From Pseudomonas sp. JM0905a (GTDB lineage: Bacteria > Pseudomonadota > Gammaproteobacteria > Pseudomonadales > Pseudomonadaceae), in contig NZ_JACXBU010000003.1 of NCBI RefSeq assembly GCF_014700075.1, positions 1 to 64,000 of the forward strand: a DNA stretch of 64,000 nucleotides, written 5' to 3'. Shown here in pieces: positions 39,198-53,440 of the stretch; the first letter of the stretch is position 1; every line of letters begins with the position of its first letter. Made by a program: the position numbers and the translations under genes. The notes under the pieces were generated by a model. That model searched no databases. It worked only from the letters and a program-made list of their open reading frames with translations, and was not told the origin of the DNA.

Positions 39198-39397
39198 GAG
39201 GGTGTTTACCTGCGTGGTGCTTCCGCTGCCCGCCGGGAACTGGAGGTCATCCAGCTCCCGGCAGCAGCTCTCCTGACCTGGCCCGCATGGCTGCGGAGGC
39301 ACCCCTTCTGCCCCTGGGTCACGCCGCTCCTGACGACGCGGAACAACCCGGCCCCCTGGTCCCTCGGCCCATCAGCGGGCCTTGTTCCATCTGACCT

Positions 39398-39571
39398 TCA
39401 ATACCAGTTCGGGTCCGCCTTCAATTGCTCGTCGAGGATGCGTCGGACTTCGTCATCCGGCTCGCCGAGCCAGCGGAAACTGGCATGTCGACTGGGCGAC
39501 TTACCGGACGGCAAAGCATCCGGTACCTGCACATAGAGTCCCCGGACGCCGTCCTTGTTCCGGCTCTCCAC
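39398..39571 (-). CDS. Possible 57-residue protein downstream of the DUF1328 gene
   Basis: A GTG at 39571 with AGCAGG upstream opens a 57-codon frame. It lies in the same reading frame as the DUF1328 gene, right after its TGA. The product is hydrophilic: GLYVQVPDALPSGKSPSRH in the first half, then GEPDDEVRRILDEQLKADPNWY at the end, which looks like a genuine acidic helix. I do not recognise the family. It could be a separate cistron or the tail of a longer protein in other species. A 12-bp imperfect hairpin (about 39231-39263) may end the operon. Confidence 0.4.
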   Translation of the reverse strand: MESRNKDGVRGLYVQVPDALPSGKSPSRHASFRWLGEPDDEVRRILDEQLKADPNWY

Positions 39572-39580
39572 GCAACCTGC

Positions 39581-39742
39581 TCAGGGCGCTCGTCGGCCAA
39601 TGATGAAAGACACCACGAACAACACCAGGAAGATGATGAAGAGTATCTTCGCGATGCCCGCGGCGGTCCCGGCGATGCCGCCAAACCCCAGCACAGCGGC
39701 AACAATGGCAATGACGAGAAACGTAAGTGCCCAACTCAACAT
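39581..39742 (-). CDS. DUF1328 small membrane protein
   Basis: 53 residues in two hydrophobic segments: [19 protein letters not shown] and [21 protein letters not shown], ending IIGRRAP. This is the full pattern of the DUF1328 (YtjA-like) family, which ranges from 50 to 65 residues. A strong AAGGAG site precedes the ATG. DUF1328 genes are often induced by envelope or osmotic stress; here it is probably read from the sigma-54 promoter at 40447. Function unknown. Confidence 0.85.
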
Positions 39743-39940: not shown

Positions 39941-40180
39941 TCAGAAGACCCAACGCACCTGGGTGACGACCTCGGTCTGCACGGGCTGACTCACTTCGTG
40001 CAGCGGCCCGTCAGCACCAACCGGCGACGTCCTGCTGCTATGTTCCCCTGCGGGGATCTGCAGCGGCGTAGGCTGCACGCGTTCGCGCAGGAGGTAGTCC
40101 GCGAGCATTCCGAGCACTACCACGAGCGCGATCAGCAGCACCATGAGCCACCTGGGCGACCACCACTGGAAACCTTTCAT
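39941..40180 (-). CDS. Small single-span membrane protein, 79 residues
   Basis: A short N-terminus (MKGFQWWSPRW) leads into one strongly hydrophobic helix (LMVLLIALVVVLGMLADYLL, residues 12-31), followed by a polar, Pro- and Ser-containing tail that should be periplasmic. The start at 40180 is preceded by GGGGAGGATTCGAGG; the longer frame upstream has no SD and reads through the leader. First gene behind sigma-54 promoter A (40447-40461), with about 255 bases of leader. No family recognised. Confidence 0.6.
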   Translation of the reverse strand: MKGFQWWSPRWLMVLLIALVVVLGMLADYLLRERVQPTPLQIPAGEHSSRTSPVGADGPLHEVSQPVQTEVVTQVRWVF

Positions 40181-40350
40181 CCTCGAATCCTCCCCATGGG
40201 CGGATGTTCGATCGATCTCGAGACTACAGACGCACGGCCATGCCACTCGAGGCCCTGAATACATCTGAGGTCACTCGCTTGCGCCGGCATCCCTGCCAGC
40301 CTCAACGGCAATTCCGGCCCTGCTCCCGGGCGGATCGCCGCTGACAAAAG

Positions 40351-40373
40351 GCCCGGAACCTCCCTGTTCCAGG
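40351..40373 (-). promoter_or_regulatory. Leader hairpin A with GGA-type loop
   Basis: In the minus-strand transcript GCCTGGAAC and GTTCCGGGC pair around a loop containing AGGGAG, followed by CCTTTTG. The CAGGGAGG tract is one mismatch from the RsmA consensus CANGGAYG. It could also be a weak terminator, giving a short RNA of about 95 bases from promoter A. The equivalent hairpin exists behind promoter B. Confidence 0.45.
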
Positions 40374-40446
40374 CGGAGTGGTCCTGGGGTGCGCAACGGT
40401 CACAAGAGGTAGAAAGACCGACGCGCCTTCAGGTACCAGGGATATC

Positions 40447-40461
40447 GCAAGGCCTGTGCCA
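40447..40461 (-). promoter_or_regulatory. Sigma-54 promoter A
   Basis: On the minus strand TGGCACAGGCCTTGC fits the consensus TGGCACG-N4-TTGC with one mismatch at the seventh base; the -24 GG and -12 GC are exactly placed. Transcription should begin near 40435 and run into the small membrane-protein genes at 40180-39398. Two symmetric sites lie 73-112 bp upstream. Confidence 0.7.
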
Positions 40462-40527
40462 GTCTCTCAAGTTGAAATGCTGCCTTATAAATCAGTGCCT
40501 TATCATCCGTCCCGCAGCTTTCTACGC

Positions 40528-40572
40528 TTGCATGCTGCAAGGCGCGCAGGAAAAGTGCGTGCAACTTGCACG
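40528..40572. promoter_or_regulatory. Paired upstream activator sites A
   Basis: TTGCATGCTGCAA (40528-40540) and CGTGCAACTTGCACG (40558-40572) are both perfect palindromes of the form TGCA-N3-TGCA. Their centres are 31 bp apart, three helical turns, so dimers would bind on one face of the DNA. They lie about 100 and 130 bp upstream of the predicted start from sigma-54 promoter A, as expected for an NtrC-type enhancer protein. Confidence 0.65.
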
Positions 40573-40718
40573 ATATTTCTTGATGGCTGGGCAGACTGGC
40601 AGCCAGGACCGGCTGCGGTCGAGTGACTGGAGGTGCACTGCGCGGCCTGAGCCCGATGCACAGCGCGAAGCCCGGGGTGACGGCGATGTCCCTCACCGCC
40701 CCCCGGCAGTTCCTGGAT

Positions 40719-40889
40719 TTATGGCGTCAGGCGACTGAAATCGCTCCAGGTGGATTGACCCCACTCGTACGGCAGCCATTCAGAGAGCAGACCGAGCAGA
40801 CCGAGAATCCCTATCAGGCCGAGCAAGAAGTGTGGACCCGTCAGCGGGGTTTCTGGCGTTTCGGGCGAGTACGAAAGGTAAGAGGTCAT
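40719..40889 (-). CDS. Small single-span membrane protein, 56 residues
   Basis: The ATG at 40889 has an AGGGAGGACC site upstream. The protein has a short Ser/Thr/Pro-rich N-terminus (MTSYLSYSPETPETPLTGP), one hydrophobic helix (HFLLGLIGILGLLGLLSEWL, residues 20-39) and a Trp-rich acidic/polar tail (PYEWGQSTWSDFSRLTP). It is the only gene behind sigma-54 promoter B, with a leader of about 275 bases. The longer frame to the left runs through the structured leader and lacks a start signal. No family recognised. Confidence 0.6.
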   Translation of the reverse strand: MTSYLSYSPETPETPLTGPHFLLGLIGILGLLGLLSEWLPYEWGQSTWSDFSRLTP

Positions 40890-41046
40890 TATCTGGTCCT
40901 CCCTTGGGTTGGATTTGCCGGACGAGCCGGCGCTGGATCTTCGACAGCACTTCCCCACGCCATTCAAAACCTTGAATGAACCTCCATGAACTCGATCTGG
41001 TTGTTCGCGTCTTCCAATCTGACCCGACGGAATCTGGACCGATTCG

Positions 41047-41105
41047 GCGTGATCCCTCGGGTAGATCACGCACCGCCGAAGGCCCGGAGCATCCCTGTTC
41101 CGGGC
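41047..41105 (-). promoter_or_regulatory. Leader hairpins B
   Basis: Two hairpins lie in the minus-strand transcript. GCCCGGA and TCCGGGC (41082-41105) enclose a loop containing CAGGGATG, an exact RsmA consensus (CANGGAYG). GCGTGATC and GATCACGC (41047-41071) form an 8-bp stem with a 9-base loop. The first is the counterpart of the hairpin at 40351-40373. Confidence 0.45.
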
Positions 41106-41175
41106 GGACTGCACCTGATTTGGAAACGGCCCCCACAGAAATGGACCCTCTCTGCATTCAGGTAAGGGAACAGGG

Positions 41176-41190
41176 GCAATGCCCGTGCCA
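41176..41190 (-). promoter_or_regulatory. Sigma-54 promoter B
   Basis: On the minus strand TGGCACGGGCATTGC matches the sigma-54 consensus TGGCACG-N4-TTGC at every defined position. The start should lie near 41164, feeding the 56-residue membrane-protein gene. The surrounding DNA is a diverged copy of that around promoter A. Confidence 0.8.
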
Positions 41191-41255
41191 GCCCTCCAGA
41201 TGAAAGAAATCCGCGGAAATCAGCGACCTGGACCTCCAGCCGAGTATTCCTACGC

Positions 41256-41300
41256 TTGCATACTGCAAATCCTGTAGGAAAAGCGCGTGCAACTTGCACG
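41256..41300. promoter_or_regulatory. Paired upstream activator sites B
   Basis: TTGCATACTGCAA (41256-41268) and CGTGCAACTTGCACG (41286-41300; identical to the site at 40558) again follow TGCA-N3-TGCA, with centres 31 bp apart and the same distance (79 versus 80 bp) from the sigma-54 promoter. The outer site ends 46 bp before the algB start, so the same protein might also affect algB transcription. Confidence 0.65.
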
Positions 41301-41346
41301 ATGATTCTTGGACTAACTTTCTATGACTCGGAAATGGAGCGAGATC

Positions 41347-42693
41347 ATGGAACAGGCAACCGAGAACCAGGGACGAATTCTCTTGGTGGATGACGAAGCC
41401 GCCATCCTGCGGACCTTCCGCTACTGCCTCGAAGATGAGGGCTACAGTGTTGCCACGGCGGGCGGTAAGGCCCAGGCCGAGGCGATTCTGCAACGGCAGG
41501 TGTTCGACCTGTGTTTCCTCGACTTGCGCCTGGGCGAGGACAACGGCCTGGACGTGCTGGCGCAGATGCGCGTGCAGGCTCCCTGGATGCGCGTGGTGAT
41601 CGTCACCGCGCATTCGGCGGTGGATACGGCGGTGGATGCCATGCAGGCAGGCGCCGCCGACTACCTGGTCAAACCCTGCAGCCCTGACCAGTTGCGCATG
41701 GCTGCGGCCAAGCAGCTGGAAATGTGCCAGCTCACCGCGCGCCTGGAAGCCCTGGAGGGCGAGATACGCCGCACCGGCGAAGGCCTGACCTCCGAGAGCC
41801 CGGCGATGATGACGGTGCTGGAAACTGCACGACAGGTGGCCGGCACCGACGCCAACATCCTCATCCTCGGCGAATCGGGCACGGGCAAGGGTGAGCTGGC
41901 CCGCGCCATCCACGGCTGGAGCAAGCGGGCAAAGAAATCCTTCGTCACCGTCAACTGCCCATCGCTGTCGGCCGACCTGATGGAGAGCGAGCTGTTCGGT
42001 CACAACCGCGGCGCTTTCACCGGGGCCAGCGAAAGCACCCTGGGCCGGGTCAGCCAGGCCGACGGCGGCACCCTGTTCCTCGATGAGATCGGCGACTTCC
42101 CCCTCAGCCTGCAACCCAAGCTGCTGCGCTTCATCCAGGACAAGGAATACGAGCGCGTGGGCGACCCGGTCACCCGTCATGCCGACGTGCGCATCCTCGC
42201 CGCCACCAACCTCGACCTGGAAGAGATGTCCCGCGACGGGCGCTTCCGTGAGGACCTGCTTTATCGCATCAATGTGATTGCCTTGAGCATGCCGCCGCTG
42301 CGAGAGCGCCACGAAGACATCCTCGACCTCGCCGAGCGCTTCCTCGCCCGCTTCGTTGGCGACTACGGACGCCCCGCGCGCGCCTTCAGTGAGGAGGCGA
42401 CGGCGGCGCTGCAGGGTTACCGTTGGCCGGGCAATGTGCGAGAGCTGCGCAACGTGATCGAACGCGCCAGCATCATCTGCAACCAGGAGGTGGTAGAGGT
42501 CAGCCACCTGGGGTTGGGCGACGCACCCGCCGCCAATGCGCCGCGAGTGGGCGGACCTCTGAGTCTGGAGGAACTGGAGCGGGCGCATATCGCCGGGGTG
42601 CTGGCCAGCAGCGAAACCCTGGACCAGGCCGCCCGCACCCTAGGCATCGACGCTTCGACCCTGTACCGCAAGCGAAAGCTCTACGGCCTCTGA
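41347..42693 (+). CDS. algB: Sigma-54-type response regulator AlgB
   Basis: 448 residues, one shorter than P. aeruginosa AlgB. The receiver domain carries LLVDDEAAILRTFRYCLEDEGYS and the phospho-acceptor Asp59 in FLDLRLGEDNGLDVL. The AAA+ domain has Walker A GESGTGKGE, the sigma-54 contact GAFTGA (about 222-227) and Walker B TLFLDEIGDFP. The Fis-type helix-turn-helix is at the end (LDQAARTLGIDASTLYRKRK). AlgB controls alginate and other group-behaviour genes. I start at 41347, which has GGAGCGAG upstream; another ATG lies eight codons earlier. It is 14 bp from kinB. Confidence 0.95.
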   Translation: MEQATENQGRILLVDDEAAILRTFRYCLEDEGYSVATAGGKAQAEAILQRQVFDLCFLDLRLGEDNGLDVLAQMRVQAPWMRVVIVTAHSAVDTAVDAMQAGAADYLVKPCSPDQLRMAAAKQLEMCQLTARLEALEGEIRRTGEGLTSESPAMMTVLETARQVAGTDANILILGESGTGKGELARAIHGWSKRAKKSFVTVNCPSLSADLMESELFGHNRGAFTGASESTLGRVSQADGGTLFLDEIGDFPLSLQPKLLRFIQDKEYERVGDPVTRHADVRILAATNLDLEEMSRDGRFREDLLYRINVIALSMPPLRERHEDILDLAERFLARFVGDYGRPARAFSEEATAALQGYRWPGNVRELRNVIERASIICNQEVVEVSHLGLGDAPAANAPRVGGPLSLEELERAHIAGVLASSETLDQAARTLGIDASTLYRKRKLYGL

Positions 42694-42707: not shown

Positions 42708-44483
42708 ATGCGACTGCGCACGCGGCTGTTTCTTAGTATCTCGGCGCTGATCACCGTCGCCCTCGTGGGCCTGCTGCTGGGGCTGGTCAGCGTGACCCAG
42801 ATCGCCGACTCCCGGGAGCGGCTGATCAACCAGTCCTTCTCGACCCTCGACCTCGGCCAGCGCATGCGCCAGCACCTGGGCGACCAGATGGTCAACCTGC
42901 TGGGGGAGGAAGTGGACATCGCGGCCCTGCAGGACGCCCAGCAGAAGTTCATGGAGGCGCTGAAGGAAGGCCTGGATTCGACCTCCGACCCGCAGGCGCA
43001 CGAGTATTTCGAGAAGATTGCCGCGTCCTACCAGGTCTTCCTCGATGTCGTGCGCCAGCCTGCCAGCCTGCGCACGAGTCTGCTGGACCAGCGCGAAACC
43101 GACCGCGCCCTGGAGGCCCTGCGCGGCAACCTGACGGAGCTGCAGCGCCATTCCCTGTCCATCGTCAGGACGGCGGAAACGGCGACCCGTGACCGCGCCC
43201 AGATGATCGCCGGGCTGCTCGGACTGGTGAGCGGCGCCGTGTTGTTGATCGGCTTCATCACCGCCCAGGGCATCGCCCGTCGCTTCGGCGCGCCCATCGA
43301 CGCCCTGGCCAAGGCGGCCGACCAGGTGGGGCGCGGGGATTTCCAGGTCACCCTGCCGTTGTCGCCGGTCAACGAGATGGCTGCGCTCATCCGCCGCTTC
43401 GGCCTGATGACCGAAGCCCTGCGCATGCTCAAGGAAACCAACGTGGAGAAACTGCTGGGCGAACAACAGCGCCTGAAGGCGGTGCTCGACAGCATTGACG
43501 ATGGCTTGCTGATCCTCGATCGCCAGGGACGCATCCAGCACGCGAATCCGGTGGCCCAGCGGCAGTTGTCCTGGGAAGAGGTCCCGCACGGCCACCTCCT
43601 GTCGAAGGCACTCGGCCGACCGGAACTGGACGAGCAGGCCCAGCGCGTGCTGCGCGGCGACCCTCGGGACGACGAGCCCGAGGACCTGGTGGTCATGGCC
43701 GACGCCGAGCAGCGCCTGCTGAGCTGGCGCATGGTCCCGGTGGCGCTGGAGGACGGACGTCTGCTGGGAGGCGTGATGGTGCTGCGCGACGTGACCGAAG
43801 AGCGCGCCTTCGAACGGGTACGCAAGGAATTCGTGTTGCGCGCCTCCCACGAACTACGGACGCCGGTGACCGGCATGCAGATGGCCTTCGGGCTGCTCAA
43901 CGAGCGCCTGCGCTTCGACCCGGATAGCCGCGAGGCCGACCTGCTGACCACCGTGGACGAAGAGATGCAGCGGCTGGTGCGACTGATCAACGACCTGCTG
44001 GATTTCTCCCGCTACCAGAGCGGCGTGCAGGCCCTGAAGCGCGAACCCTGCGACCTGGAGGAGCTGCTCTGCGCCTTGCGCCAACGGTACAGCGCCCAGG
44101 CCAGCGAACGCAGCATCGAGATCGAGCTGGAACTGCACCCGCCACTGCCGCGGGTGAGGCTGGACCGCCTGCAGATCGAGCGGGCACTGGACAACCTGGT
44201 GGGCAACGCCATCCGCCACAGCCCCAACGGCGGAAACATCCGCCTGCAGGCCCGACGTCACGGCGAACGGGTGCTGGTGAGCGTGGCGGACGACGGCGAC
44301 GGCGTGCCGTACAGCCAGCAGGCGCGGATCTTCGAACCCTTCGTACAGGTCGGCCACCGCAAGGGTGGTGCCGGCCTGGGCCTGGCACTGTGCAAGGAGA
44401 TCGTGCAACTGCACGGCGGGCGCGTCGGCCTCTATTCACGGCCGGGGCAGGGGGCGCAGTTCTATATGACCTTGCCGGTGTAG
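42708..44483 (+). CDS. kinB: Sensor histidine kinase KinB
   Basis: 591 residues. A first membrane helix (LFLSISALITVALVGLLLGLVSV) is followed by the helical periplasmic KinB sensor domain (about 35-165), a second helix (MIAGLLGLVSGAVLLIGFITAQG), HAMP, a PAS domain (about 255-360), HisKA with ASHELRTPVTGMQMAFG (His at about 381) and an ATPase domain with NAIRHSPNGG and GGAGLGLALCKEIV. KinB both phosphorylates and dephosphorylates AlgB; loss favours alginate production in P. aeruginosa. It directly follows algB. In P. aeruginosa AlgB also receives phosphate from a bacteriophytochrome; no such gene is seen here. Confidence 0.95.
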   Translation: MRLRTRLFLSISALITVALVGLLLGLVSVTQIADSRERLINQSFSTLDLGQRMRQHLGDQMVNLLGEEVDIAALQDAQQKFMEALKEGLDSTSDPQAHEYFEKIAASYQVFLDVVRQPASLRTSLLDQRETDRALEALRGNLTELQRHSLSIVRTAETATRDRAQMIAGLLGLVSGAVLLIGFITAQGIARRFGAPIDALAKAADQVGRGDFQVTLPLSPVNEMAALIRRFGLMTEALRMLKETNVEKLLGEQQRLKAVLDSIDDGLLILDRQGRIQHANPVAQRQLSWEEVPHGHLLSKALGRPELDEQAQRVLRGDPRDDEPEDLVVMADAEQRLLSWRMVPVALEDGRLLGGVMVLRDVTEERAFERVRKEFVLRASHELRTPVTGMQMAFGLLNERLRFDPDSREADLLTTVDEEMQRLVRLINDLLDFSRYQSGVQALKREPCDLEELLCALRQRYSAQASERSIEIELELHPPLPRVRLDRLQIERALDNLVGNAIRHSPNGGNIRLQARRHGERVLVSVADDGDGVPYSQQARIFEPFVQVGHRKGGAGLGLALCKEIVQLHGGRVGLYSRPGQGAQFYMTLPV

Positions 44484-53300: not shown

Positions 53301-53309
53301 ATTCCGGGC

Positions 53310-53440
53310 AAAAAAAACCCCGGACTTCGTATGGGGAGGGGGAAGTTCGGGGTCTAAGTCTGAACCGCTAGGGCGGGGTTCAGATATCTGCCAACACTAA
53401 ACACAGCAAAAGGAGCATCGAAAGGCTTCACCAGCCATTC
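53310..53440 (-). ncRNA. ersA: Small RNA ErsA
   Basis: About 131 bases on the minus strand between polA and engB, the position and length of ErsA in P. aeruginosa (Spot 42 occupies this site in E. coli). The 3' end is a terminator: ACCCCGAACTTC pairs with GAAGTCCGGGGT (53317-53353) around a C/U-rich loop (CCCCCTCCCC) and ends in eight T. Upstream is GAACTT (53468-53473) and, 17 bp on, TCACA (53446-53450), close to the AlgU/sigma-22 consensus GAACTT / TCTGA. ErsA pairs with algC, oprD and amrZ mRNAs in P. aeruginosa. The exact 5' end is inferred. Confidence 0.8.

Follow-up and report, generated by a model that had tools for sequence, protein, structure and literature searches.

A conserved sigma-54-type enhancer–promoter module beside algB in the Pseudomonadaceae and the WVF-tailed small proteins that it may control

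In the window, i.e., the whole 64,000-nt stretch of Pseudomonas DNA analysed here, two closely similar promoter modules, A (approximately 40447–40570) and B (approximately 41176–41298), were located on the minus strand beside algB. The algB gene (41347–42693, plus strand) encodes an NtrC-type response regulator consisting of a receiver, a sigma-54 activation domain with the GAFTGA motif, and a Fis-type HTH, and is the proposed activator of both modules. Its start is probably at 41347, not at 41323, because most homologues from outside the genus aligned from around residue 9 and several longer ones ran into an in-frame stop codon. The cognate sensor kinase is encoded by kinB (42708–44483, plus strand; KinB_sensor, E = 2.4e-31). 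Gene A (39941–40180, minus strand), which begins 266 nt after promoter A, encodes a protein of 79 amino acids with an N-terminal hydrophobic segment and the C-terminus RWVF (QVRWVF); it is predicted to be an AlgW-activating peptide like MucE (which we take to be PA4033), whose C-terminal WVF it shares. Gene A had no Pfam family over the cut-off and no NCBIfam match listed. A DUF1328 small membrane protein gene (39581–39742, minus strand; E = 1.5e-17), conserved behind modules, is its probable downstream operon member, and beyond it lies a remnant of the lysozyme inhibitor Ivy (39398–39571, minus strand) that covers only positions 65–117 of the 117 in the profile. The Ivy gene appears to be 5'-truncated, and the ivy-DE RNA element downstream (39266–39362) is kept. 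Gene B (40719–40889, minus strand) encodes a 56-amino-acid protein of no known family, with a hydrophobic stretch and no WVF tail; no Pfam match over the cut-off was found and no NCBIfam match was listed. Elsewhere in the window, the small RNA ErsA (Pseudomon-1) was detected at 53302–53418 (Rfam, 134.6 bits).

The initial annotation had described two regions carrying the same parts in the same order on the minus strand, and all of these parts were present when the coordinates were rechecked. Module A, as located by sequence pattern, consists of an outer enhancer palindrome (CGTGCAAGTTGCACG, 40558–40572), an inner enhancer palindrome 31 bp from it (TGCAGCATGCA, 40529–40539), and a sigma-54 promoter (TGGCACAGGCCTTGC, 40447–40461), from which transcription would be expected to start at approximately 40436. 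The corresponding elements of module B, again on the minus strand, are an outer palindrome lying 46 bp ahead of where algB probably starts (41286–41300), an inner palindrome (TGCAGTATGCA, 41257–41267), and a sigma-54 promoter (TGGCACGGGCATTGC, 41176–41190), the last two likewise located by sequence pattern; here, a start would be expected at approximately 41165. As described earlier, the outer palindromes are the same letter for letter, each module has 31 bp between its palindrome centres, and the distance between promoter and palindrome is 1 bp longer in A, the end of the inner palindrome being 67 bp from TGGC in A and 66 bp in B. The sigma-54 promoter reported for each region was confirmed as TGGC-N7-TTGC, so that both copies carry the GG and the GC of a -24/-12 element at the fixed spacing of enhancer-dependent sigma-54 promoters. 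The description of algB as an adjoining NtrC-type gene with intact GAFTGA also held, the motif being found in the translation and the activation domain by profile. Two features, the RWVF tail of gene A and an IHF-like site in each module, are additions to that description. Scored on nine positions of the IHF consensus, the site of module A (TAAGGCACTGATT, 40490–40502, minus strand) agreed at 8 of 9 and lies 41 bp before the -24 element, and that of module B (CAGGTCGCTGATT, 41218–41230, minus strand) was weak (7 of 9) and lies 40 bp before it. The modules share direct repeats of 64 nt (84% identical) and 39 nt (85%), with spacings of 728 and 731 bp, and are therefore regarded as a local duplication.

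The full pattern occurred three times in the 5.79-Mb genome from which the window derives: at A, at B, and before an OsmY-like gene (C40:380429) whose same-genus homologue contains a BON domain. A reversed control pattern gave no match in this genome, and a relaxed module score gave none in 739 kb of base-shuffled sequence. The palindrome pair was present in all 18 same-genus genomes (including that of the window), in each of which the reversed pattern was absent. A search of relatives for TGCA-N3-TGCA pairs before sigma-54 promoters, set beforehand as a check, showed that the sites are conserved, the strict full pattern being present in 44 of 79 genomes of the Pseudomonadaceae. Among 274 genomes sampled over the class, it was found in four, comprising both of those inside the family and 2 of the 272 outside. 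The two out-of-family matches, in G292 and G243 (loci L296 and L298), are counted here as raw pattern matches. Near the distant AlgB homologues of Lysobacter (two loci, L083 and L084), the module was not found. Chance similarity is ruled out by the reversed pattern, the shuffled sequence, and the rarity of the module outside the family, and a functionless duplication is unlikely because each of the 18 same-genus genomes has the palindrome pair and the module recurs in different genera.

We collected 147 distinct copies of the module (53 from named records and 94 from other genomes, including the window's own), many of which come from close relatives and are thus non-independent. The paired upstream sites were held at a constrained distance, as in sigma-54 enhancer–promoter units: the pair spacing was 31 bp in 126 copies, 32 bp in 20, and 30 bp in one, and the gap between enhancer and promoter was 65–67 bp in 134 copies (search range 58–72 bp). 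An IHF-like site was located between enhancer and promoter across the family, starting 40–41 bp ahead of the -24 element in 127 copies, and scored 8–9 of 9 in 124 copies vs approximately 7% of shuffles. As a cis-element, the module is conserved in the Pseudomonadaceae. Its combination of a TGCA-N3-TGCA pair at 31 bp, an IHF-like site, and a -24/-12 element provides a candidate AlgB box with which further Pseudomonas genomes can be screened.

AlgB orthologs (E ≤ 1e-100) were present in 52 of the 79 family genomes, and KinB sensor domains in 49. The strict module was found in 44 of the 52 AlgB-positive genomes and in none of the 27 AlgB-less ones (Fisher p = 2.3e-14, kinship ignored), the AlgB-less set having been scanned by the strict pattern only and including several small or incomplete genomes. 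All 44 strict-module genomes carried AlgB, the sole enhancer-binding protein checked for co-occurrence; that is, among the 79 family genomes the site occurred only where AlgB was present. Each of four genera (g5, g11, g16, and g17) held an AlgB-less genome that also lacked the module, and three of them (g5, g11, and g17) also contained genomes that have AlgB but not the strict module. In all, eight AlgB-positive genomes lacked it, seven of which had a relaxed match upstream of algB. G069, which carries AlgB, had no module near algB and no relaxed match genome-wide, and was the sole exception to the presence of a strict or relaxed module, which was found in 51 of the 52 AlgB-positive genomes within the stretches fetched. 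In genus g17, to which G069 (L252) belongs, no KinB sensor matches were found in the four genomes sampled, just as A. vinelandii is reported to be without KinB (PMC6979010). The module follows AlgB rather than KinB, because G033 and G058 have AlgB and the module with no KinB sensor match. The earlier suggestion of a small-protein regulon under the control of AlgB or another enhancer protein thus gains support, in that the module tracks AlgB (44 of 52 vs 0 of 27) and many of its targets are small proteins; in this putative regulon, the small proteins often combine a hydrophobic N-terminus with a MucE-type WVF tail. An HT-SELEX atlas lists AlgB among the factors with predicted targets, implying a motif (PMC8041468, in the portion available), so an AlgB SELEX motif probably exists.

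The module was repeatedly positioned just before genes for proteins with such tails. In 43 of the 52 AlgB-positive genomes, a strict or relaxed module in the fetched stretches was followed within 900 bp by an ORF ending in [WYF][VITAL]F. In the examined stretches of the other nine (G001, G002, G021, G050, G060, G069, G071, G075, and G078), two of which belong to the window's own genus, no module-driven tail ORF was found. Over the whole module collection, an ORF ending in [WYF]xF lay within 1.5 kb behind 80 of the 147 copies. We also examined 79 loci around algB-like genes (L027–L105), using the relaxed module score and a range of 1.3 kb downstream. Fifty of the 51 small ORFs ending in [WYF][VIT]F followed a module, at 33–94 nt in 48 cases and at 520–522 nt in two; at L032, a P. 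putida record, the tail gene begins 47 nt behind a relaxed module near algB. Seventy other small ORFs were likewise located within 1.3 kb downstream of modules. Elsewhere, the tail occurred in 1 of 788 small ORFs, namely a gene at L050 read from an earlier start; from a later start, the same gene lies 73 nt behind a module. A module, a tail, or both were lacking at 29 of the 79 loci. Twenty of these had no module, 19 being outside the Pseudomonadaceae by record title and one (L035) being an incomplete Pseudomonas stretch. Nine had a module and no tail, namely eight from Pseudomonadaceae or unplaced Gammaproteobacteria and L093, from a Desulfobacteraceae record, where the module match is probably due to chance. 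In the window's own genome, codons for [RS]WVF followed by a stop, the only tail variant searched genome-wide, were found once, where gene A ends.

The 114 distinct tail proteins fell into 13 BLAST clusters, with no similarity between clusters at E 1e-3. Within the [WYF][VITAL]F ends that the tail scan admitted, 105 of the proteins ended in WVF (77 of them in RWVF), the variants being WTF, WIF, YVF, and FVF. By hydropathy, all 114 had an N-terminal hydrophobic stretch, as would be expected of the membrane or export segment of a MucE-like activator, and a membrane topology is predicted from it. That the linkers vary while the tail is kept is as expected for a peptide ligand. Among the few of these small protein families that were scanned, none had a Pfam or NCBIfam model. 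In two relatives of the window's genome (G005 and G010), a second relaxed module was located 48–49 nt before the tail gene. By eye, a further TGCA-type pair is also visible ahead of the tail gene in the module A leaders of L014, L015, L021, and L025, and in the window this second, inner copy appears decayed or unrecognisable.

In genus g9, AlgB was present in 24 of 25 genomes; among 17 upstream stretches, a relaxed module was found in 16 and a tail ORF in 15, and G097 had neither in the 5 kb upstream of algB. In G096, the relaxed module beside algB precedes DUF1328–Ivy genes with no tail there, and another relaxed module elsewhere (L282) precedes a 91-amino-acid protein ending in AWTF and a 61-amino-acid membrane protein. 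The KinB sensor of G096 matched the solved structure 3kkb, which we take to be from P. aeruginosa, so that G096 is presumably a close P. aeruginosa relative. Besides the WVF-type small proteins, the genes recurrent behind the 147 modules encode DUF1328, Ivy-like, DUF2383, BON, CsbD, and DUF3509 proteins, and the BON, CsbD, DUF2383, and DUF1328 targets carry no WVF-type tail. A 61-amino-acid membrane-type protein ending in KFDPVLR, DPVLR, or RFDPSLD was encoded farther downstream at modules that also precede tail or tail-like proteins (L013, L018, L113, L204, and L282); the one such protein scanned had no Pfam family.

We consider it likely that KinB/AlgB, together with RpoN, directs the production of MucE-like peptides that switch on AlgW and thereby AlgU. 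AlgB dimers would bind the paired TGCA-N3-TGCA sites, IHF would bend the DNA between enhancer and promoter, and AlgB would act at the -24/-12 element to activate RpoN polymerase. From module A, gene A and then DUF1328 would be transcribed, and AlgW, activated by the gene A tail, would cleave MucA and free AlgU, such that KinB/AlgB could set off the envelope-stress response of AlgU even when no outer-membrane proteins are misfolded. The window's own genome encodes an AlgW candidate, so named because it aligned over residues 1–378 with the solved AlgW structure 7co2, and not for its DegS family match, which lay below the curated cut-off. With somewhat less assurance, we also think it probable on balance that AlgB–RpoN commands fast-evolving WVF-tail trigger peptides that fire AlgW–MucA–AlgU at the order of a two-component system. 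Such wiring, by which the sensing of misfolded proteins is bypassed, would be widespread in the Pseudomonadaceae and would be the missing KinB–AlgW step, with a WTF-tailed protein encoded behind another module, as seen in G096, acting as the trigger in the P. aeruginosa lineage and with the BON, CsbD, DUF2383, and DUF1328 genes placed on the same promoter type elsewhere. If true, an AlgB/RpoN-type promoter for a WVF-tailed protein is a direct answer to how AlgB reaches AlgW.

Several statements in the accessible parts of earlier publications bear on this proposal. The loss of KinB leads to proteolysis of MucA (PMC12830090, PMC6979010) and to mucoidy, the effect of a kinB mutation is RpoN-dependent (PMC12830090), the KinB phenotype runs via AlgW (PMC6979010), and a 2026 review states that AlgB activates AlgW (PMC13001231). 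The decapeptide SVRDELRWVF, with which MucE ends, activates AlgW by way of the PDZ domain of the protease (PMC8545111), and mucoidy is induced via AlgW by MucE with its WVF end as well as by a truncated pilin ending in FTF (PMC3684759). In strain PAO579, transcription from the algW promoter is driven by RpoN (PMC3684759), and RpoN control of algW is also given in PMC13001231; such control could explain the RpoN dependence without a peptide and is a competing account. Beyond RpoN control of algW, the parts of these publications available to us give nothing further on AlgB's path to AlgW. Judged by titles and the beginnings of abstracts among open-licence papers, none dealt with AlgB-driven WVF proteins, and parts of the scheme may have been reported previously. 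Mucoidy induced by MucE in P. aeruginosa is independent of RpoN, with mucE responding to AlgU and not to RpoN (PMC3819740). An algB mutant of A. vinelandii, a species without KinB, made normal alginate (PMC6979010), which we count against the peptide reading. From our own data, the 8 of 52 AlgB-positive genomes without the strict module (G069 in particular), the 9 of 52 without a tail ORF, the 29 of 79 incomplete loci, G096 and G097, and the tail-less targets also count against it.

Pseudomonas genomes hold many enhancer-binding proteins, and the module could be real and RpoN-dependent but bound by one of these other than AlgB. The binding of AlgB is predicted from the sequence only, and strict modules far from algB were found in three genomes (G087, G031, and G027). 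We nevertheless consider this reading unlikely, in view of the presence of AlgB in every strict-module genome, the AlgB-less and module-less genome in each of four genera, and the retention of AlgB and the module in G033 and G058, in which no KinB sensor was found. Furthermore, strict or relaxed modules were located upstream of algB even in lineages with different downstream genes. It is also improbable, although a shade less so, that AlgB/RpoN controls these genes but that the WVF tail has another role, such as binding another PDZ protease, e.g., MucD. The topology and the AlgW activation are predicted from a short tail, and the 13 clusters of tail proteins share no BLAST similarity with one another, points that leave room for such a role. 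Against it, peptides ending in WVF activate AlgW in vitro (PMC8545111), the FTF tail, which works in vivo (PMC3684759), is near the WTF, WIF, YVF, and FVF variants, and the KinB phenotype goes through AlgW, as noted above.

The leader offers another reading, in which the module serves mainly to produce a regulatory RNA: the leader, with its A-N-GGA hairpin, would either be the functional product itself or act as a translational switch to which RsmA/CsrA binds. The leader hairpin noted earlier in each region was found at 40352–40373 in module A (AGGGAG loop) and at 41083–41104 in module B (AGGGAU loop), both on the minus strand. Among 17 leaders aligned from the window's own genus, 13 had the hairpin and four did not, and the AGGGA loop was kept in 12 of the 13 hairpin copies, which were picked by a motif containing part of the loop. 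A-N-GGA in a hairpin loop, present in the same 12 copies, is the RsmA/CsrA site motif. The hairpin is conserved within the genus, and it fits an RsmA/CsrA site without demonstrating one. In the alignment of the 13 copies (11 distinct), 90.9% of cells paired, but no pair showed a two-sided change and shuffles scored equally; moreover, no Rfam family was found at the leader at the gathering threshold. At many other promoters, the leader is only approximately 40–110 nt before a coding gene, indicating that the module does not include a long leader. We therefore regard a mainly regulatory RNA as quite unlikely, and as less probable than either of the two alternatives above. A terminator reading of the hairpin was dropped because the U-run after the hairpin is not retained in module B, and a CCAGG/CCUGG switch seen by eye is likewise not retained in B.

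Sigma-54 promoters of the NtrC/glnAp2 type have paired upstream sites and a -24/-12 element, and several involve bending by IHF. The module resembles them in its paired upstream sites and -24/-12 promoter, but is unlike them in its TGCA-N3-TGCA palindrome, in the 31 or 32 bp that separate the paired sites (146 of the 147 copies), and in its enhancer–promoter gap of 65–67 bp (134 copies). Gene A ends in the same tail as MucE of P. aeruginosa, a small envelope protein with a C-terminal RWVF that activates AlgW (PMC8545111, PMC3819740). AlgU drives mucE (PMC3819740), whereas gene A lies behind a sigma-54/AlgB-type module beside algB, the two proteins having been compared by their tails (the MucE decapeptide) only. 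Finally, the algB–kinB pair in the window is the same two-component system as KinB–AlgB of P. aeruginosa, which is known for alginate and for the control of AlgW. The accounts of that system, in the parts of the literature available, invoke RpoN control of algW or the binding of AlgB at algD, whereas the arrangement described here points to AlgW-activating peptides that would be driven by AlgB itself.
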